From Glaciecola sp. HTCC2999 (GTDB taxonomy: Bacteria; Pseudomonadota; Gammaproteobacteria; Enterobacterales; Alteromonadaceae), in the NCBI RefSeq assembly GCF_000155775.1, contig NZ_DS989812.1:193640-257639 (forward strand): a DNA stretch of 64,000 bases, read 5' to 3'. Each line of letters starts with the position of its first letter. Within the stretch, counting starts at the first letter, position 1. A program made the translations under genes and the position numbers. Shown here piece after piece: positions 36,082 to 48,138 of the stretch. The notes below the pieces were generated by a model. The model made no database searches. It saw nothing but the letters and a program-made list of their open reading frames with translations, and was not told the origin of the DNA.

Positions 36082-36351
36082 ATGTCACTAACTACACAAG
36101 AAGCAGCTGCAATCGTAGCAGATTACGCAACTAAAGAAGGCGACACTGGTTCACCTCAAGTACAAGTTGCATTATTAACGCACAACATCAACAAACTTCA
36201 AGGTCACTTTAAGTCTCATAAAAAAGATCACCATTCACGTCGTGGTTTATTACGCATGGTTTCTACTCGTCGTAAATTATTAGACTACCTTAAAGGTAAA
36301 AATGTTGAAGCGTATCAAGACCTAATCAAACGTTTAGGCCTACGTCGCTAA
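36082..36351 (+). CDS. rpsO: 30S ribosomal protein S15
   Basis: An 89-residue S15, exact family length, binding 16S rRNA in the central domain. It has the typical [46 protein letters not shown] lies just upstream of the ATG at 36082. It has its own promoter behind truB and its own terminator. The usual next gene, pnp, is not present; the downstream genes are on the other strand. Confidence 0.97.
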
Positions 36352-36367
36352 GACAAGCTCAAATACT

Positions 36368-36398
36368 AAAAAGGCGCTTTTTAAAAGCGCCTTTTTTT
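36368..36398. terminator. Strong intrinsic terminator after rpsO
   Basis: The stem AAAAAGGCGCTTTT with its complement and a seven-base T-run; the A-run on the other side lets it serve the convergent racemase-like gene too. Confidence 0.92.
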
Positions 36399-36423: not shown

Positions 36424-37557
36424 TCAAACATAACGCCTTGGTAATCGAGCTCGCCATCCGGTTAAAATTTCATAACACACGGTTTTTTTCCATTTGACCA
36501 AATCTCGAGGATCGATCCATTCATCACCTTGACCGCCCATTAGCACGACTTCATCGCCTATTGACACATTATCTAAATGACTGACGTCTACCATCATAGC
36601 ATCCATAGCATTACCACCTACTACTGGGCATTGTTGTCCGTGGATTAATACGTACCCTTCATTGCGTACACGCGGGTAACCATCACCGTAGCCAATCGGT
36701 AATATTGCAATCTGCATGGGTGTAGACGCAGTAAAATGCATCCCATAGCCGACACAATCACCTACTTGGAGTTGTCTTAACGCAGGTATTTGCGCTTTAA
36801 CCGACATAATCGGTTTGAGTCCTTCAATACGTTTACATACAAGCGATGGATATACGCCTAAATGTAAGATCCCACTGCGGATCATATTGAAATGCGCATG
36901 GGGGAGGTCGAGAAGCCCACCGGTATTGGACATGTGAATTAATGGGATGGTGATATCCGTTTGTTCTAGCGCTTCTATGACTTCCACAAAGCGACTATGC
37001 TGTAGATTCGCATAGGTTTTATCTGCTTCATCGGACATGGCAAAATGACTCATCATGCCTTCCAGAACTAATCCATCACACTCTCGGGCAATATATTCAA
37101 TCACCGGTATTGCATCACTCCAGCGCACACCCCAACGACTCATGCCACTATCAATTTCGATATGAACCGTGTGGTTAATCCCTTGTGCTAAGCACAGTGC
37201 ATTAAAGCGTCTAGCTTTGTCGATATCATTGACACAACAGGTGATGCGATAGGCTAAACATGCAGCAAATTCAGCGTCACTGACCTCACCAAAAATTAAG
37301 ATGGGTAGTTCAATCTGGGCATCGCGTAATTCAATCGCTTCATCTATGGTCTCAACAGCGAGATAGTCATAACCGGCGTCACGCGCCGCTTTAGCGATAA
37401 CGACACCACCATGGCCATACGCTTGGTCTTTGACAACACATAATTTTTTAAGATGTGCAGGTGAGTCTTGATTGATAAGCTCAAAATTGGTGAGTAGTTG
37501 TTGATGATCTATTTCTACCCATGCGCTGCGAATACCTGACATTGGTTTATCTATCAT
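36424..37557 (-). CDS. Alanine racemase-like PLP enzyme, coupled to an ATP-grasp ligase
   Basis: A 377-residue fold-type III PLP enzyme. The PLP lysine is K43 in VVKDQAYGHG; housekeeping alanine racemases usually read VVKANAYGHG. Further family marks are DSGMSRWGV, HMSNTGG, GYGMHF (the second catalytic Tyr), IGYGDGYPR and GNAMDAMMVDV. Several normally conserved spots differ: RSG where RPG is usual, and no Tyr-Gly after it. The start is the ATG at 37557, whose A is shared with the stop of the ATP-grasp gene (TAATG), with GGAG seven bases before. It may be a racemase of another amino acid or an alanine racemase paralogue. The product would be fed to, or come from, the adjoining ligase; this is inference. 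Confidence 0.8.
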   Translation of the reverse strand: MIDKPMSGIRSAWVEIDHQQLLTNFELINQDSPAHLKKLCVVKDQAYGHGGVVIAKAARDAGYDYLAVETIDEAIELRDAQIELPILIFGEVSDAEFAACLAYRITCCVNDIDKARRFNALCLAQGINHTVHIEIDSGMSRWGVRWSDAIPVIEYIARECDGLVLEGMMSHFAMSDEADKTYANLQHSRFVEVIEALEQTDITIPLIHMSNTGGLLDLPHAHFNMIRSGILHLGVYPSLVCKRIEGLKPIMSVKAQIPALRQLQVGDCVGYGMHFTASTPMQIAILPIGYGDGYPRVRNEGYVLIHGQQCPVVGGNAMDAMMVDVSHLDNVSIGDEVVLMGGQGDEWIDPRDLVKWKKTVCYEILTGWRARLPRRYV

Positions 37558-38849
37558 TATGCTGCTCCTGGTGGCCACATAGTGTCACCAATATCAGTGC
37601 GGTAATAGCTATTTGAACAGCGGATATCTGCCATCAGTGCATAGGCCTGCTGGACCGCATCATCTTTCGTATTACCAAATGCGTTCACATCGAGTAACCG
37701 ATGACCGGATGCTAATACGGGATGTTCTGCTTTACCTGCCTCTACTTCGTTGAGCCAAATATCGCCTTTATCACTGCATAATACTTCTGGTAACTCTAAT
37801 GGAAAGGCAGGGCCTGTGACACTTAAAAACGGATACCCGTAACCGGCAAGAGTAATTGAACACCCAATCGGTTTATCGGAAACAAAATCAGGAATAAATT
37901 CACTGCCATCGATCACTGCTTTGAGCATATCAAGGGGGTTTTTGAGCATACGCATGATCATAGGGCCACATGTGACGCCAAGACGAGCATTGTATTCAAT
38001 CACCGACCACACCCCATCGCGACAAATTGCGGTGACTTGTAACGGTCCAGTGTAATTGACTTCTTCTAGCCAAGGTTGTAATGGGGTAATGAGTGTCTCA
38101 GCGAGACCATATTGGTCTGTCGGATCGGCTTCGATTAAACCGCCAAGTGGGGCGCCTGCAATTTTTCCCATGTTACCGTTAAAGGCGCGTTTATATTCTT
38201 GGTTACTGACTAAAGAAGTGATTTGGCCGTTTTGGACAAAGACAATGTGTCCAGCTTCTTTGTGACCCATATATTCTTGGAAAAATACACCTTCGGCATA
38301 ATCAATCCGATCCAACCAACTCTGAGTATCAGCTAACGTTTCACAAACAATAGTATGAATAGGACTAGTGGGAGAACATAGTGTGTTTTTGATGACATAG
38401 GGAGCAGGGTGCTGGGTCAGAAATTCTTGCGCATCTAGCCGGTTTTGTGCGACGCAAGAACGCGGAAATGCAATGCCGACGGATTCGCCAATGGTTTGTG
38501 CAAACGCGCGGTCTCGTTCGAGTTTTAGGGCTTCATCGGTGGGACAAAATACCGGCGTCTTTGCTGCGAATGCTGCTGCCCAATCGCTTTGCGCCCAATC
38601 AATTGACATCGGGATCATAATATCCACAGGGTGCTCAGCTACGAGTGCTAAAGGGTTAGCAAAATCATGTTCATCAAACGTCTGACACACCTGGTTAGGG
38701 CCATAATGGCCGTAGTCACGACTCAGCCAGACGATGACATGAGCACCGGCGTCTTGCAGGGTTTGTGCTAAACCATGGGTAAAGGCACCGATACCGATAA
38801 TCAGTACCGAAAGTGAAGAAGCGTCTTTTTCTGGTAATGGTAGAGACAT
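37557..38849 (-). CDS. PurD-like ATP-grasp ligase
   Basis: A 430-residue ATP-grasp protein built like phosphoribosylamine-glycine ligase (PurD). It has an N-terminal Rossmann-like part starting VLIIGIGAFTHGLAQTL, then an ATP-grasp core (FFQEYMGHKEAGHIVFVQNG, VIEYNARLG with metal ligands, GPMIMRMLKNPLDML) and a C-terminal YYRTDIG as in PurD. The N-terminal PurD signature GxGGREHAL is replaced by GIGAFTHGL, and a clear stretch (SRDYGHYGP) differs, so it is probably a paralogue joining other substrates. It is translationally coupled to the racemase-like gene downstream. Together they suggest ATP-driven amide formation with a racemised amino acid. Confidence 0.72.
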   Translation of the reverse strand: MSLPLPEKDASSLSVLIIGIGAFTHGLAQTLQDAGAHVIVWLSRDYGHYGPNQVCQTFDEHDFANPLALVAEHPVDIMIPMSIDWAQSDWAAAFAAKTPVFCPTDEALKLERDRAFAQTIGESVGIAFPRSCVAQNRLDAQEFLTQHPAPYVIKNTLCSPTSPIHTIVCETLADTQSWLDRIDYAEGVFFQEYMGHKEAGHIVFVQNGQITSLVSNQEYKRAFNGNMGKIAGAPLGGLIEADPTDQYGLAETLITPLQPWLEEVNYTGPLQVTAICRDGVWSVIEYNARLGVTCGPMIMRMLKNPLDMLKAVIDGSEFIPDFVSDKPIGCSITLAGYGYPFLSVTGPAFPLELPEVLCSDKGDIWLNEVEAGKAEHPVLASGHRLLDVNAFGNTKDDAVQQAYALMADIRCSNSYYRTDIGDTMWPPGAA

Positions 38850-38925: not shown

Positions 38926-39690
38926 CTACCCAGCAGTCGGCACTGTTCCGCGACTCACACTATTGAGTGTTTTTTCCATCGCTGTCACTTTGTTTTTAAG
39001 TGCGGTATTACGCTGTTCCAATATCGCTATTTTCTCGTTAATTACCACGTTTGTGTCTTGTCCCGATAGGAGACCTTGTTTCATGGTTTCAATTTCAAGA
39101 CTCACTGATAAGATCTCGTTTTTGGTGGCGTTAAAATCATTTTGTAGTGCGTCAAATTTAGTATCAACATTCTTAATACTCTTTTTCACTGAAGCGGTAA
39201 CCGAGTTCACTGAAGCTGTCACCGAGTTCACACTGGATTGAGCTTTGGTGCGATTATCTTCCACTACCTTGGTCAGATCTTGTATTTCTTTTTGATTTCG
39301 ACGCCAAGCAGATGCCCAAAGCTTATCCATTTGATCCCATAACTCTTCTGCACGATTTGCGAGTTCACCTACTTTAACTTGTAGTGCTACAGTAGAATTA
39401 CCCATTTCTTCACCAGTAGCGGATAAACGGTTTTCTAACTCCATAATACGTGCAGTAGCACTATCTAATGCTGCTTGGCTTTGTTGTTGGGTGTAATAGA
39501 GAAAGCCCGATGCGCCTGTGGCAATTAACGCTAATAATAGTGCGCCGATGACAAGCCCTTGGTTATTGGCTTTTACGATAGTGGGAGCGGGTGACGGTGT
39601 GCCGTTGGGGTTAGTACCTTGAACGGTTCGATCAGAGGCATCGATACGGATATTAGGTACATCGTCAAAAGAGTGTTTAGTCATGGACAT
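38926..39690 (-). CDS. Single-pass membrane coiled-coil protein, unknown function
   Basis: About 254 residues. A polar N-terminus of about 40 residues, rich in Asn, Pro and Thr, is followed by one transmembrane helix (VIGALLLALIATGASGFLYY) and a long coiled coil to the end, with heptads such as IMELENRLSA and IAILEQRNTALKNKVTAMEKTL. In the middle, SVNSVTA is repeated exactly in tandem. The topology suggests a cytoplasmic tail and periplasmic coil, or the reverse. I do not recognise the family. The start could be the ATG at 39690 or 39684; neither has a strong ribosome-binding site. It lies upstream of the ATP-grasp gene, 76 bases away and on the same strand. Confidence 0.75.
   Translation of the reverse strand: MSMTKHSFDDVPNIRIDASDRTVQGTNPNGTPSPAPTIVKANNQGLVIGALLLALIATGASGFLYYTQQQSQAALDSATARIMELENRLSATGEEMGNSTVALQVKVGELANRAEELWDQMDKLWASAWRRNQKEIQDLTKVVEDNRTKAQSSVNSVTASVNSVTASVKKSIKNVDTKFDALQNDFNATKNEILSVSLEIETMKQGLLSGQDTNVVINEKIAILEQRNTALKNKVTAMEKTLNSVSRGTVPTAG
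39185..39226. repeat. Two tandem 21-bp repeats inside the coiled-coil gene
   Basis: Two adjacent 21-base copies differing at two positions, each beginning TTCACTGAAGC on the plus strand. They encode the repeated SVNSVTA heptad and keep the frame, adding one exact heptad to the coil. Confidence 0.9.
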
Positions 39691-39711
39691 CAATCATTTT
39701 GTTTAAGTGAA

Positions 39712-42387: not shown

Positions 42388-43989
42388 ATGAAAATCAGTT
42401 ACATACATACAGATGCTTATCAGGTAAAGCGCGAGCAATGGGGTCGCCAACTCAAAGATATATCTAAAGTCTTGGTGGGTAGTCTAATCGTGCTGGGATT
42501 AACAGCATGTGGTGGCGGTAGTGGCTCATCAGGTCCCGTTTCGCCGACACCGACCACACCGGTTGCCACACCCAGTGCACCAGCAATGAACGATTTTATG
42601 TTTATGGCGAGTCAAAACACACAGCTTGATGAAACCTTACGTGGTGTCATTACTGGGGATAAGATATTTTTGCGTACGCCCGAAGTCATCGATGTCGGCA
42701 ATCTTGCAGCAACGTTTGTGATTGACGGGGCAACTGTAACGATTAATGGCAAAGAACAAGTATCTGGCGTGACGACAAACGATTTTTCTCAACCAGTGAC
42801 GTACACGATTACTAATTCTGCAGGTACGAGTAAACAGTACACAGTAGAAGTTATGCAATTTACCGGTCTGCCCGTCATTAACCTAACGACAGACAATGGA
42901 AATGCGATTACGAATCGAGATGATTACACCACTGGTACGGTGTCAGTGTTTGGTAATGGTGTCGTCAGTGATTTAGATAATATGACAATGGAAATTCGTG
43001 GTCGAGGGAATTCGACATGGGGCATGCCTAAGAAGCCGTATCAAATGAAGTTATCTTCTAAACGTGAATTTTTAGACATGGAGAATGACAAAAAATGGTT
43101 ATTCTTGGCAGAGTACGCCGATAAAACCATGTTACGAAATCAGATTGCCTACGAAATGGGATATTTAAGTGATTTGGCATGGACGACAGATTCTGAATTT
43201 GCCGAAGTCTTCCTTAATGAAGAATACCAAGGCACTTATCATATCACGCAAAAAGTGGAAGAGGGCAGTGACCGTGTTGATTTGGGAGATAACGGATTCT
43301 TATTAGAAATTGATCAGTTCGAGCGCCTTGATCCTGATGATGTATATTTTGAGACAGGTACATTTTTGATTAATATCAAAGAGCCGAGCTTAGAAGAGAA
43401 TGACAGTCAGTATCAATTCATCACGCGATTATTATTCGAATTTGAACAAGCACTTTACTCTAATACCTTTGCAGATCCGAATAATGGTTATGCCCAATTT
43501 ATTGATATAGACAGCTTTATAGATTGGTACTTGATCAGTGAAATTACTAAAAATGTTGATTCTCGCTTTTTCTCGAGTATTTACTTTCATGTCATTCCAG
43601 GTGAAAAAATAAAGATGGGTCCGTTATGGGATTTTGACTTAGCGTTTGGCAATGTGGATTATGCCGATCCGGAATTTCCAGAAGGATTCTGGATCAAGGA
43701 TAACCCTTGGTACGCTCGACTATTCCAGGATCCAAATTTTGTGAATCTAGTGCAGGCACGTTTTGCATACTACAATAATAATAGAACCTACTTACTCAAT
43801 AAAATAGATGAGTATGCAGAGAAATTACGTTACGCCCAAGCTGAAAATAACGCTAAATGGCAAACGATTGGCGTCTATGTATGGCCTAACCCTGTTGTAT
43901 TAGATACTTATGACGAAGAAGTAGCACGCCTTAAATCCTGGTTTAATACTCGCATGGATTGGCTCGATATTGCTTTGGGAGATTTATAG
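42388..43989 (+). CDS. CotH kinase family lipoprotein
   Basis: A 533-residue lipoprotein. A long N-region and hydrophobic helix lead to lipobox LTAC, lipidated Cys at 41, then a Ser/Pro/Thr spacer (about 42-66) and a small beta domain (about 70-160, cadherin-like DUF5018-type region with MNDFMFMASQN). The CotH domain runs from about 165: MEIRGRGNSTWGMPKKPYQMKL, WLFLAEYADKTMLRNQIAYEM, VFLNEEYQGTYHI, and the metal-binding GPLWDFDLAFGN. CotH proteins are atypical protein kinases first known from Bacillus spore coats; the Gram-negative surface versions have unknown targets. The LacI-type operator upstream suggests sugar-linked control. The next gene is convergent, two bases beyond. Confidence 0.85.
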   Translation: MKISYIHTDAYQVKREQWGRQLKDISKVLVGSLIVLGLTACGGGSGSSGPVSPTPTTPVATPSAPAMNDFMFMASQNTQLDETLRGVITGDKIFLRTPEVIDVGNLAATFVIDGATVTINGKEQVSGVTTNDFSQPVTYTITNSAGTSKQYTVEVMQFTGLPVINLTTDNGNAITNRDDYTTGTVSVFGNGVVSDLDNMTMEIRGRGNSTWGMPKKPYQMKLSSKREFLDMENDKKWLFLAEYADKTMLRNQIAYEMGYLSDLAWTTDSEFAEVFLNEEYQGTYHITQKVEEGSDRVDLGDNGFLLEIDQFERLDPDDVYFETGTFLINIKEPSLEENDSQYQFITRLLFEFEQALYSNTFADPNNGYAQFIDIDSFIDWYLISEITKNVDSRFFSSIYFHVIPGEKIKMGPLWDFDLAFGNVDYADPEFPEGFWIKDNPWYARLFQDPNFVNLVQARFAYYNNNRTYLLNKIDEYAEKLRYAQAENNAKWQTIGVYVWPNPVVLDTYDEEVARLKSWFNTRMDWLDIALGDL

Positions 43990-44797: not shown

Positions 44798-46462
44798 TTA
44801 TTGGCCAAAACTGTGTAATTGTTTTTTTCTAATTTTAATAATTACGTCATATAGTTTTTCTGTTGTATAAGGTTTTGATAGTACGTAATTAAACCCTGCA
44901 TCATAATAACTACGAACTTCATCAGGCATAGTATTACCGGATATTGCTATGACAGGAGTGGTAGCGTCTGTTTCACGAATTTTATTAATTAATCCAAGAC
45001 CATCTAGTTTGGGCATAGCAATATCAGATAACACAATATCAAAATGATGGAAATCGAGTAATTCAAGGGCTTCTTCACCATTCTCAGCTTCTTTGATATT
45101 CACCGCACAGGCGATAAGTTGTTCTTTTAGGATGGTTCGGTTGATGAAGTTATCTTCAACAATTAACACTGAAACGCCGGCTAAATTTGGTAACGCAGGC
45201 GCATCATTTTCGGTGTCGCTTAGTGAATCTTGTTTAGGCTTTCTGACACGCTTATACGGAATAGTTATCTGAAAAACACTGCCACCATTTTTGCTACTCT
45301 TTACGTCAATGGCGCCTGCTAATTCATTCAATAGTTGTTTTACAATACTCAGTCCAAGACCGGTACCTTGGTACTTTTTAGTCGAACTTTGTTCAATTTG
45401 AAAATATTGCTCGAAGATTTGGTCGGTATATTCATCAAGTATTCCGATCCCAGTATCTTCAACCTTTAATATGATATTTTTGTGCTCAAGATCAGTTTCA
45501 ATCTGGACCTTTATACCGCCTTCTGATGTGAACTTAACGGCATTACCTACGATATTCGATAATATAATTTTAAATGACTTTTGAGCCACAAATACCTGTT
45601 CGGGTAAGTTGTCATGAAACTGTACATCAAAGCTTAATCCTTTCTGATGTGCCTGTTCTTCATAAATGAATAGGGTTTTAGATGTAACATCACGAATATT
45701 AACTGGGATAGGCGTATCGATAAAATTGCCAGAGCGGAGTTGTTTAATGTTTAAAACGCCATCAATAGTATCATTCAGATGCTCTGTTGTGCGGATAACA
45801 TTTCGTAACAAAAACTGATATCTTGAAGCAGATATTTCATGATGGCTAAGTACATCTAATACACCTTTAATACCTTGCAGAGGATTACGTATTTCGTGAT
45901 TTAGATGAGTAATAAATTGTTCCTGTTTATGATTTATTTCAAAGAGCTCTCTCGATTTTTGAGAGTAATCTTTAGCGATAAGTAGCAACGCTATGAGTAA
46001 AGCTATCAAGACCATCGATTCCCTTACCGGCAGTCCCATTAAAACGACATCATAATAGCTCTGTAGATTCTCAGTAAAACCTGTGACAAATTGTAAGACA
46101 AGAAAGGCGATCAGGATGACAGTTGCTTTGAATACTAACCGATAATGATGAATACCCATCAGCCATAAAGATATGATGCTAAATGCCAATATATAAAGTG
46201 CTGAATTTGAATTCGTCAGTCCACCACTCGTTAATATATTGCCAAGAGAGTAAGAGAAAAAACCGACAAGTAGTAGATAAGTTCTAAATGATGCGTTGTG
46301 ATAATAATAGAAGGCCGCGCCTAGGCAACTGAGAGTTAACACCCCACTAACAATCCGAAAAGTCATATCATATTGAACGTCAAATACGAAAAATACAGCC
46401 CTGATAATCAGCATTATTAATAGGTAAACACGTTTAATCGTTAGAGCAGGGTGATGGTACAT
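44798..46462 (-). CDS. Hybrid sensor histidine kinase/response regulator (second of a tandem pair)
   Basis: A 554-residue membrane kinase. Six transmembrane segments fill about residues 12-165, without a recognised sensor domain and with only short loops. Then come HisKA with the phospho-His at 189 (HLNHEIRNPLQGIKG), HATPase with NAVKFT, DTGIGI and GTGLGLSIV, and a C-terminal REC domain with phospho-Asp at 480 (IVLSDIAMP) and the conserved Lys in LSKPY. There is no histidine phosphotransfer or DNA-binding output domain. It is a paralogue of the kinase upstream, 20 bases away, probably cotranscribed. It lies just upstream of tmRNA. Confidence 0.92.
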   Translation of the reverse strand: MYHHPALTIKRVYLLIMLIIRAVFFVFDVQYDMTFRIVSGVLTLSCLGAAFYYYHNASFRTYLLLVGFFSYSLGNILTSGGLTNSNSALYILAFSIISLWLMGIHHYRLVFKATVILIAFLVLQFVTGFTENLQSYYDVVLMGLPVRESMVLIALLIALLLIAKDYSQKSRELFEINHKQEQFITHLNHEIRNPLQGIKGVLDVLSHHEISASRYQFLLRNVIRTTEHLNDTIDGVLNIKQLRSGNFIDTPIPVNIRDVTSKTLFIYEEQAHQKGLSFDVQFHDNLPEQVFVAQKSFKIILSNIVGNAVKFTSEGGIKVQIETDLEHKNIILKVEDTGIGILDEYTDQIFEQYFQIEQSSTKKYQGTGLGLSIVKQLLNELAGAIDVKSSKNGGSVFQITIPYKRVRKPKQDSLSDTENDAPALPNLAGVSVLIVEDNFINRTILKEQLIACAVNIKEAENGEEALELLDFHHFDIVLSDIAMPKLDGLGLINKIRETDATTPVIAISGNTMPDEVRSYYDAGFNYVLSKPYTTEKLYDVIIKIRKKQLHSFGQ

Positions 46463-46482: not shown

Positions 46483-48138
46483 TTAACTCATGATCAATTG
46501 TCGTTTGCGAACCTTAAGAATAATATCGTACAGCTTTTCTGTGTTATAGGGTTTTGACATTACATAATTATACCCTGCATCATAATAAGCCGTTGCCTCA
46601 TTATGCAGGGTATTGCCAGAGATAGCTACCATGATTAATTGTGGTTCGAACTGACGCACGGCTTTAATCAGACCGACACCATCTAATATTGGCATAGCGA
46701 TATCAGATAACACAATATCAAAATGATTAACTTTGATAAGATCTAATGCTTCTGCCCCGTTTTCGGCTTCTGTAATACTCGCTCCACATGCTTCAAGTTG
46801 TTCTTTTAAAATAGCGCGATTAATCATGTTGTCTTCTACAACCAATATTGATGTCCCTGCTAGATTAGGCAACTTGTGGTGTGGTTTTACAGCGCTACTC
46901 GCTAAGTTAGATTTAGACTGTAGGACTAACTTACAAGGAAAAGTAACCGTGAAGGTAGAGCCCTCATTCAAGGTTGAGTGAGCGGTGATAGAGCCCTCTA
47001 AGCGGCTAATTAACGGTTTAACAATACTTAGCCCTATACCGGTCCCTTGAAAGTCTTTGGTTAACCTCTGATCGACTTGGTAATACTCATCAAATATTTT
47101 GTCAGTTAATGTCTTTGGTATACCTATCCCTGTGTCTTGCACACTCAATGTAAGCATGCCTTGAGTGAATGATACATCAATGTTGATTTCTCCTTGAGCA
47201 GTATATTTAACAGCATTACTAGTTAAGTTTGAAAGCACGATTTTGAGTGATTTATTTGGAATAAATAATTGCTCAGGTAAATCTTCATCATAATTCACTT
47301 TAAACTTGAGCCCTTTTTGATGAGCTTGTTCTTTGTAAATAAAGATAGTGGTATCGACTATATCGCGAATATTATGTGGAACTGGACTATCACTGAACAT
47401 ACCTGAACGAAGTTGTTTTAGACTAAGTACCTCGTTAACCATGTCATTAAGGTGATTTGTGGTGCGAATAGCGTTATCGAGTAAATAATCAAAACGTTCA
47501 GCAGGGATCTGATGATTTTTAAGGATATCAAGCACGCCTTTTATGCCTTGGAGTGGGTTACGCATTTCGTGATTTAAGTGGGAGATAAACTGATCTTGTT
47601 TAATAGTGATATCTATAAGTTTATTATTCTTCTTTCGGTAATCATTGACTAGAAAGTATAAGGCTGCCAATGATGTTATTGAACCTATTAATGATATTAA
47701 TGGTATGCCTAATAAGTATTGATCATCATTAACATCCATTATTTGAGCGTAACCAGAAAAATAATGGATTATCGCAATACTGATTAAAATGCATGTGCCA
47801 ATTAAAACTGAACGGGTTTGTTCGACACCTAATGTCCATAAAGTAAATATGGCAAATCCAAGGATGTAAATGGGTGTTGTACCATCAGCTAGACCACCCA
47901 TAGTTAATATCGGTGAAAGGGACAATGATAAAAAACCAACTTGAGTGAGAATATTCTTAAGTATCTTATTTTTGTAAAAGAAGTAATACGCGCCAACTAG
48001 GGAAGTAACCGTTATATATCCTAGAATAATACGAAATGTTAATCCCTTTTGAATTTCTATGAACAAAAACGGTAATCTGATCAAAAGAGGGATCAAAATA
48101 TATAATCGCTGAGCGAAAAGTTGTTGGTAAATGCGCAT
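46483..48138 (-). CDS. Hybrid sensor histidine kinase/response regulator (first of a tandem pair)
   Basis: A 551-residue protein of the same layout as its downstream neighbour: six transmembrane segments (about 11-165), HisKA with H190 in HLNHEMRNPLQGIKG, ATPase with N308 (NLTSNAVKYT), DTGIGI (335-340) and GTGIGLSIV (365-373), and a REC domain with D479 and K529. All key residues are intact, so both kinases should be active. AAGGA lies eight bases before the ATG. The gap to smpB is only 42 bases, so transcription may begin at smpB. Sequence similarity to the second kinase is strong over the full length, pointing to local duplication. Confidence 0.92.
   Translation of the reverse strand: MRIYQQLFAQRLYILIPLLIRLPFLFIEIQKGLTFRIILGYITVTSLVGAYYFFYKNKILKNILTQVGFLSLSLSPILTMGGLADGTTPIYILGFAIFTLWTLGVEQTRSVLIGTCILISIAIIHYFSGYAQIMDVNDDQYLLGIPLISLIGSITSLAALYFLVNDYRKKNNKLIDITIKQDQFISHLNHEMRNPLQGIKGVLDILKNHQIPAERFDYLLDNAIRTTNHLNDMVNEVLSLKQLRSGMFSDSPVPHNIRDIVDTTIFIYKEQAHQKGLKFKVNYDEDLPEQLFIPNKSLKIVLSNLTSNAVKYTAQGEINIDVSFTQGMLTLSVQDTGIGIPKTLTDKIFDEYYQVDQRLTKDFQGTGIGLSIVKPLISRLEGSITAHSTLNEGSTFTVTFPCKLVLQSKSNLASSAVKPHHKLPNLAGTSILVVEDNMINRAILKEQLEACGASITEAENGAEALDLIKVNHFDIVLSDIAMPILDGVGLIKAVRQFEPQLIMVAISGNTLHNEATAYYDAGYNYVMSKPYNTEKLYDIILKVRKRQLIMS

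Follow-up and report, generated by a model that had tools for sequence, protein, structure and literature searches.

What does a PurD-like ATP-grasp ligase make when its gene is coupled to that of an alanine racemase? This question is raised by two genes on the minus strand of a 64,000-nt stretch of the Glaciecola sp. HTCC2999 genome (contig NZ_DS989812.1; here termed the window, from an assembly that is 82% complete). The genes for the ligase (37557..38849, 430 amino acids) and the alanine racemase family enzyme (36424..37557, 377 amino acids from the ATG overlapping the ligase stop) share a TAATG sequence (37555..37559), in which the last A of the ligase TAA (37559-37557) opens the racemase ATG (37557-37555). 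The longer mechanical start of the racemase open reading frame (ORF) is a GTG at 37578 (384 amino acids). An initial annotation of the window had described the same two minus-strand ORFs with their TAATG; equal amounts of both proteins, as suggested there, may result from it. It had further proposed that the racemase supplies a D-amino acid to an ATP-driven amide ligase making a small metabolite. Its observations were confirmed in part, and its interpretation is partly supported: with a probability of about one half, the pair is an acquired two-gene version of a three-gene module of Verrucomicrobiota, in which a D-amino acid, likely D-alanine, is joined to a partner.

Comparison of the window ligase with the PurD model TIGR00877 gave 91.1 bits (90.6 in the genome search), far below the equivalog cut-off of 288, and the ligase of the Pedosphaera member also remained below it (101.2 bits). 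At E ≤ 0.001, GARS_A and GARS_C were the only Pfam domains matched by the ligase, with no Ddl-type match. PurD structures were closest to an AlphaFold2 model of the ligase with a mean predicted local distance difference test score (pLDDT) of 78.8; they occupied ranks 1 to 15 in Foldseek and ranks 1 to 13 in VIA-align (Z 27.8-32.7), where PurT, PurK, and PylC followed at Z values of about 22 to 24. The description of the ligase as PurD-like was thus borne out, and the predicted ATP-grasp fold extends over the whole length of the protein.

In an alignment of 74 ligase family rows (72 genomes) with 19 PurDs, 212 columns were at least 95% conserved in the PurDs; of these, 29 carry the PurD residue at 95% in the ligase family as well, and 44 are equally conserved as another residue. 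The ATP-grasp residues K154, E285, N287, and R289 were kept in 74/74 rows, leaving the ATP/Mg residues intact, whereas motif residues present in 19/19 PurDs were replaced in every ligase row: in GGREHAL the R and E, in VGPE the G, P, and E, and in DPETQ the P, E, and Q. At these sites, most rows read G-[AS]-F-[AT]-[HQ] (the window sequence GIGAFTHGL was as quoted in the initial annotation), [MQ]-S-I-[DE]-W, and [VI]-T-x-G, respectively, and the GPNTGGMG loop, compared by consensus only, is rebuilt before AP-x-GG. We take these four stretches to be substrate loops of PurD. Judged by its sequence, the ligase is a family of its own that forms a separate clade apart from PurD and has the PurD fold and ATP-grasp residues. 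It is under purifying selection, with a ratio of nonsynonymous to synonymous substitution rates (dN/dS) of 0.048 in one comparison (window versus L029, dS 1.1). As a separate observation, the ligase matches at G1116:C56:26367-27683 and G1092:C124:13059-14372 came in two pieces, each within one open frame length; an in-frame insertion is thereby suggested around profile position 267.

The racemase of the window scored 325.9 bits (cut-off 168) with the alanine racemase (Alr) model TIGR00492; with the VanT-G serine racemase model, 287 (286.6, window) and 305 bits were obtained against a cut-off of 460. Residues were counted in 69 pair racemase rows (66 genomes) and compared with 11 other Alr sequences. 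The lysine binding pyridoxal phosphate (PLP) as well as Tyr43, Arg136, His166, Asn203, Arg219, Tyr265, Tyr284, Met312, Asp313, and Tyr354 (Geobacillus numbering) were kept in 69/69, and because these 11 catalytic or PLP-contact positions are invariant the racemase should work. The PLP lysine is followed by Asp, giving KD for KA, in 64/69 pair racemases versus 0/11 other Alr, in line with the VVKDQAYGHG quoted initially. The altered active-site surroundings claimed for the racemase were overstated, since all catalytic residues checked are kept. The RPG-Tyr-Gly region reported as lacking is in fact present: R234, which pairs with the PLP ring (numbering of the 384-amino acid ORF), and the later G241 occur in 69/69, and only the Pro and Tyr vary. 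Glu was found at the Lys129 position only in the 13 Alteromonadaceae rows (10 genomes), the other 56 rows having Lys; Lys129 is the carbamylated residue of Alr, and the Glu could stand in for the carbamate. Tyr354, Met312, and Tyr265, which we take to keep the Alr pocket small, point to a small amino acid as the substrate.

In the racemase tree, the pair racemases lie on their own side of a 100/100 branch opposite 10 other Alr rows, with long branches flagged by the program. The racemase of the window does not group with the second Alr of its genome (G000:C5:88358), and another Alr besides the pair racemase was present in all four genus genomes searched, including that of the window. It is thus neither the only Alr of its genome nor a member of the housekeeping group. 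A dN/dS value was incomputable for the racemase, its synonymous sites being saturated.

Within the genus, a Glaciecola/Opacimonas-like group of Alteromonadaceae, the ligase was present in 10/10 genomes and adjoined by the racemase in all of them. The nine other loci (L029-L035, L037, and L011) were matched to genomes by coordinates; the closest named relative, a Glaciecola sp. HTCC2999 bin (L029), has 92% (ligase) and 87% (racemase) identity to the window pair. The stop/start overlap was kept in eight of the nine readable junctions including that of the window (seven TAATG, one TGATG); L033 has a 2-bp gap, and the junction of L034, unreadable, is outside this count.

The same adjacency was found in a second phylum, with an additional gene. 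Among 132 ligase-positive Verrucomicrobiota genomes found, 63 loci were read (L036, L072, L073, and L125-L184), and their usual order is ligase, racemase, and transferase, all on the same strand. In 52/63 loci the racemase starts <200 bp from the ligase, and the transferase is in reach in 46/63, in 44 of these <250 bp from the racemase; altogether, 60 of the 63 genomes contain the transferase. The adjacency that the initial annotation had proposed to check is thus complete in the genus and usual in the Verrucomicrobiota loci read, whose third gene lay outside the view of that annotation. Across 320 genomes of the order holding the Pedosphaera member, ligase and transferase occurred together in 116, the ligase only in 15, the transferase only in 26, and neither in 163 (Fisher p 1e-43, relatedness ignored). 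Nine of the 15 ligase-only genomes have the neighboring handles G1026-G1037 and no transferase match. The three of these that were read (L166, L168, and L176) have adjacent ligase and racemase genes without a third gene, showing that the pair can stand alone, as it does in Alteromonadaceae; their racemases group together on the tree, apart from those of Alteromonadaceae.

The third gene encodes, as judged by sequence and structural modelling, a full-length divergent relative of arginyl-tRNA-protein transferases. Its profile matched that of Bpt from the Alteromonadaceae genus in hhalign (98.7%), including the YLG...YK..F...E.FNG..W stretch, and 27/41 members matched the ATE_C domain (PF04377) at E ≤ 0.001, with scores of 24.9 for the first member and 27.6 for the Pedosphaera member at a gathering score of 25 bits. 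A sequence search against solved structures gave no match, and fold comparison alone succeeded: human ATE1 came out first (Foldseek E 2e-9, query TM 0.57; Z 16.3, 4.4 Å over 238 residues), followed by A-PGS and MprF. FemX (Z 11.0) and Sba18 (Z 10.7) ranked lower, among ordinary GNAT acetyltransferases. Unlike ATE1/Bpt, the third gene product has no N-terminal Cys motifs that could be seen, and all three members scanned missed the arginyltransferase equivalog cut-offs. Its homology and fold suggest that it uses an aminoacyl-tRNA. In six Alteromonadaceae genomes, an ATE-type match 20 to 32 kb from the pair was considered as a displaced third gene and rejected; in the three loci read it is an ordinary bpt behind aat.

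The distribution of the ligase is uneven. It was found in 131/320 genomes of the order holding the Pedosphaera member and in 3/387 genomes sampled across Verrucomicrobiota (1e-40); G612, one of these three, is absent from the genome list of that order, and the family thus extends beyond it. A strong match occurred in 4/98 sampled Alteromonadaceae genomes, all four from this genus, and the 1/398 Pseudomonadota genomes matched at E ≤ 1e-60 was that of the window itself. One pattern-seeded scan covered the other phyla, and its matches were from Alteromonadaceae and Pedosphaera alone. In the racemase tree (midpoint root, long outgroup branches flagged by the program), a single Alteromonadaceae clade (100/100) is nested among the Verrucomicrobiota rows (63-row clade, 97/95); in the ligase tree the two groups stand apart and the root is not resolved, so that nesting is undecided there. 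The breadth in Verrucomicrobiota and the racemase tree together favor a single event: the pair was probably transferred once, without the third gene, from Verrucomicrobiota to the ancestor of the Alteromonadaceae genus. Searches for mobile relatives matched 50 plasmid and 23 phage records, all below 60% identity; the 15 listed for each had 21 to 28% identity, the level of ordinary PurD, and were rejected as relatives. Among viral contigs, 39 stretches with the search pattern encoded no relative.

For the function of the module we propose the following sequence. The PLP-dependent racemase, with its catalytic residues intact, would form a D-amino acid, most likely D-alanine. The PurD-related ligase with its rebuilt substrate loops would then activate a carboxylate with ATP and join it to an amine, so that the D-amino acid becomes part of an amide. 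Where Verrucomicrobiota have the third gene, the transferase of ATE1/Bpt fold would add an amino acid from aminoacyl-tRNA to the ligase product. The kept catalytic residues or the fold argue for the racemase and transferase steps and the ATP-grasp core for the ligase step, all of them at the level of sequence and models; that racemase and ligase act consecutively and that the transferase step depends on tRNA is inferred, as are the substrates. The specific version in which D-alanine, the PurD-derived amide ligase, and an ATE1-like tRNA-dependent cap form one line, with Alteromonadaceae making the uncapped form, is put forward tentatively, at odds clearly short of even. A dedicated supply of the D-amino acid is favored by the pair racemase being an extra Alr in Alteromonadaceae. 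The product may stay inside the cell, a guess based on the finding that, apart from the three genes and their shadow ORFs, no family occurred in >11/63 loci, as far as the 40 largest ORF clusters around the 63 ligases could be named by eye.

In pyrrolysine synthesis, lysine is linked to a D-ornithine derivative by the ligase PylC. Like the ligase studied here, PylC has a purine-type ATP-grasp fold (Z 22.6, 3.7 Å over 321 residues), but the identity is 13%, and in the fold ranking it stands near PurK and PurT, far lower than PurD. It provides a precedent for a purine-type ATP-grasp enzyme joining D- and L-amino acids. According to PMC11867202 and PMC12945691, short peptides such as phosphonoalamides, dehydrophos, and fosfazinomycin are made by stand-alone ATP-grasp ligases or tRNA-dependent GNATs; in contrast to those systems, both enzyme types and a racemase are present here in one compact operon.

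Several findings weigh against the proposed module. The ligase model is poor in loop 216-235 (pLDDT below 50), and all substrates as well as the product are putative. In 4/63 Verrucomicrobiota loci the racemase is 1.8 to 3.3 kb from the ligase, and in 7/63 neither partner is in reach, one of these (L144) ending 1.4 kb past the ligase. The six others were searched elsewhere in the genome; all have a KD-motif racemase, and in four (G1129, G1082, G1091, and G1106) a transferase lies <400 bp from it. Ten loci have the racemase without a transferase beside the ligase, seven of them with a transferase on another contig. Over the order, 41/157 carriers have the ligase or the transferase only, the genomes being drafts, however. 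An ABC-transporter ATPase (11/63) and a response regulator (10/63), both named by eye, recur near the ligase in scattered places and on either strand, and an absence of transporters and regulators is therefore not strict. Other families recognized by eye were RecG (eight loci), a Dus-like, and a GuaA-like gene; none of these five neighbor types showed a functional link by eye. A single Alr over the cut-off was found in 39/42 ligase-positive Verrucomicrobiota genomes examined (G612, G958, and G1156 have a second one), and the pair-kind Alr is present in 42/42, in 36 within the ligase locus and in six elsewhere with the KD motif. Where the racemase is usually the sole Alr, its link to the ligase does not necessarily imply that both work toward one product. 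On this point the initial proposal of a D-amino acid and an ATP-driven amide ligase is weakened, while it is still the best reading.

The single Alr is also an argument for a role in the cell wall, in which the racemase is the housekeeping Alr of Verrucomicrobiota and the ligase and ATE-like transferase alter the peptidoglycan stem, by a D-Ala-D-X terminus or by a tRNA-derived side residue such as FemX adds, Alteromonadaceae having taken the first part. FemX and MprF among the structural neighbors of the transferase fit such a role. Moreover, vanT/vanC comprises a racemase and an ATP-grasp ligase, which the pair recalls; but the pair differs from the vanC/vanT D-Ala-D-Ser module in a racemase below the VanT cut-off (286.6 of 460 bits) and a ligase that lacks a Ddl-type domain and has PurD as its best fold neighbor. 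All four Alteromonadaceae genomes searched have another Alr, and no peptidoglycan gene was nameable by eye among the 40 neighbor clusters, not all of which were named; a MurQ-like gene (by eye) lies nearby in the single locus L072. The sole-Alr argument itself is weakened, not removed, by 8/14 ligase-negative genomes of the order that also have no Alr over the cut-off, and on balance we regard a cell-wall module as a serious rival, though a rather unlikely one. As a side observation, the best Alr match in three ligase-negative genomes of the order of G483 (G877, G878, and G889) is partial, with internal stops in G877 and G878, which may hint at alanine racemase loss in part of the order.

The racemase might instead act on another small amino acid such as serine, which the ligase would then join in its D-form. 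The Asp in place of Ala beside the PLP lysine in 64/69 and the VanT-G scores, albeit below the cut-off, would fit this, but the small-pocket residues named above are present in 69/69 and the alanine racemase model scores highest, so that such a substrate seems doubtful. A divergent PurD, or an enzyme forming a D-alanine analogue of glycinamide ribonucleotide, is a very improbable identity for the ligase. PurD is its nearest relative in both fold and sequence, and no second purD was found in the window genome, an 82%-complete assembly, when one was looked for as proposed in the initial annotation. However, it reached 90.6 of 288 bits, the PurD motif positions are changed in 74/74 rows, and nine of the 10 genus genomes, all except the incomplete one of the window, contain an additional match that scores as ordinary PurDs do; in L061, this match has 75% identity to E. 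coli PurD over the aligned stretch. We retain the D-amino acid ligation module as the preferred reading.

The pair converges on rpsO (36082-36351, on the opposite strand), the next gene past the racemase in the window, with a terminator-like hairpin (36368..36396, plus strand; pattern match only) in between. The initial annotation had placed the pair where pnp would be expected; neither the window nor, within the reach of their flanks, the six genus loci holding rpsO showed a pnp match, but given the opposite strand and convergence this says little. Proximity to rpsO does not belong to the function, because no rpsO lies within reach of the pair in the Opacimonas locus (L033), and an extra gene is inserted beside the pair in L032 and L034. 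These two related genomes encode look-alike secreted-looking proteins (by eye) of ~590 amino acids on different sides of the pair (L032:3545-5329 and L034:4161-5936), and its flanks are thus subject to change. Upstream of the ligase and on the same minus strand, a coiled-coil protein is encoded (38926..39693), in which one stretch looks membrane-like by eye. It neighbors the pair in 9/10 genus genomes, parted from the ligase by the insert in L032; in L031, the 1.4 kb preceding the ligase contained no match, and the protein was not seen as a recurrent neighbor in the Verrucomicrobiota loci. Farther away in the window, two adjacent hybrid histidine kinases (HisKA, HATPase, and receiver domains; 44798-46462 and 46483-48138, same strand, ~20 bp apart) have the look of a tandem duplication, and a CotH-domain protein (42388-43989), which by eye begins like a lipoprotein, is encoded beside a ylqF-like gene.

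The single enzymes belong to known superfamilies, and their combination is apparently undescribed: neither it nor the PurD-like ligase family nor the operon-borne ATE-like enzyme was described in the open-licence papers searched, and an earlier prediction may be contained in an amidoligase review (Iyer and others 2009). PMC2922099 and PMC5303756 had no bearing on the operon.

In about four in ten genomes of the Verrucomicrobiota order the module is easily overlooked, because family models report an alanine racemase and, weakly, PurD. If the proposed function is correct, these bacteria would make a peptide-like compound that derives from neither the ribosome nor a nonribosomal peptide synthetase. 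The ligase would represent a new specificity of amide ligation related to purine biosynthesis and would follow PylC as the second instance in which an ATP-grasp fold of the purine pathway has been turned to D-amino acid ligation, and an ATE1-type transferase would be used outside protein tagging. For the Alteromonadaceae genus, the pair would mean that an undescribed D-amino acid compound has been passed between phyla.

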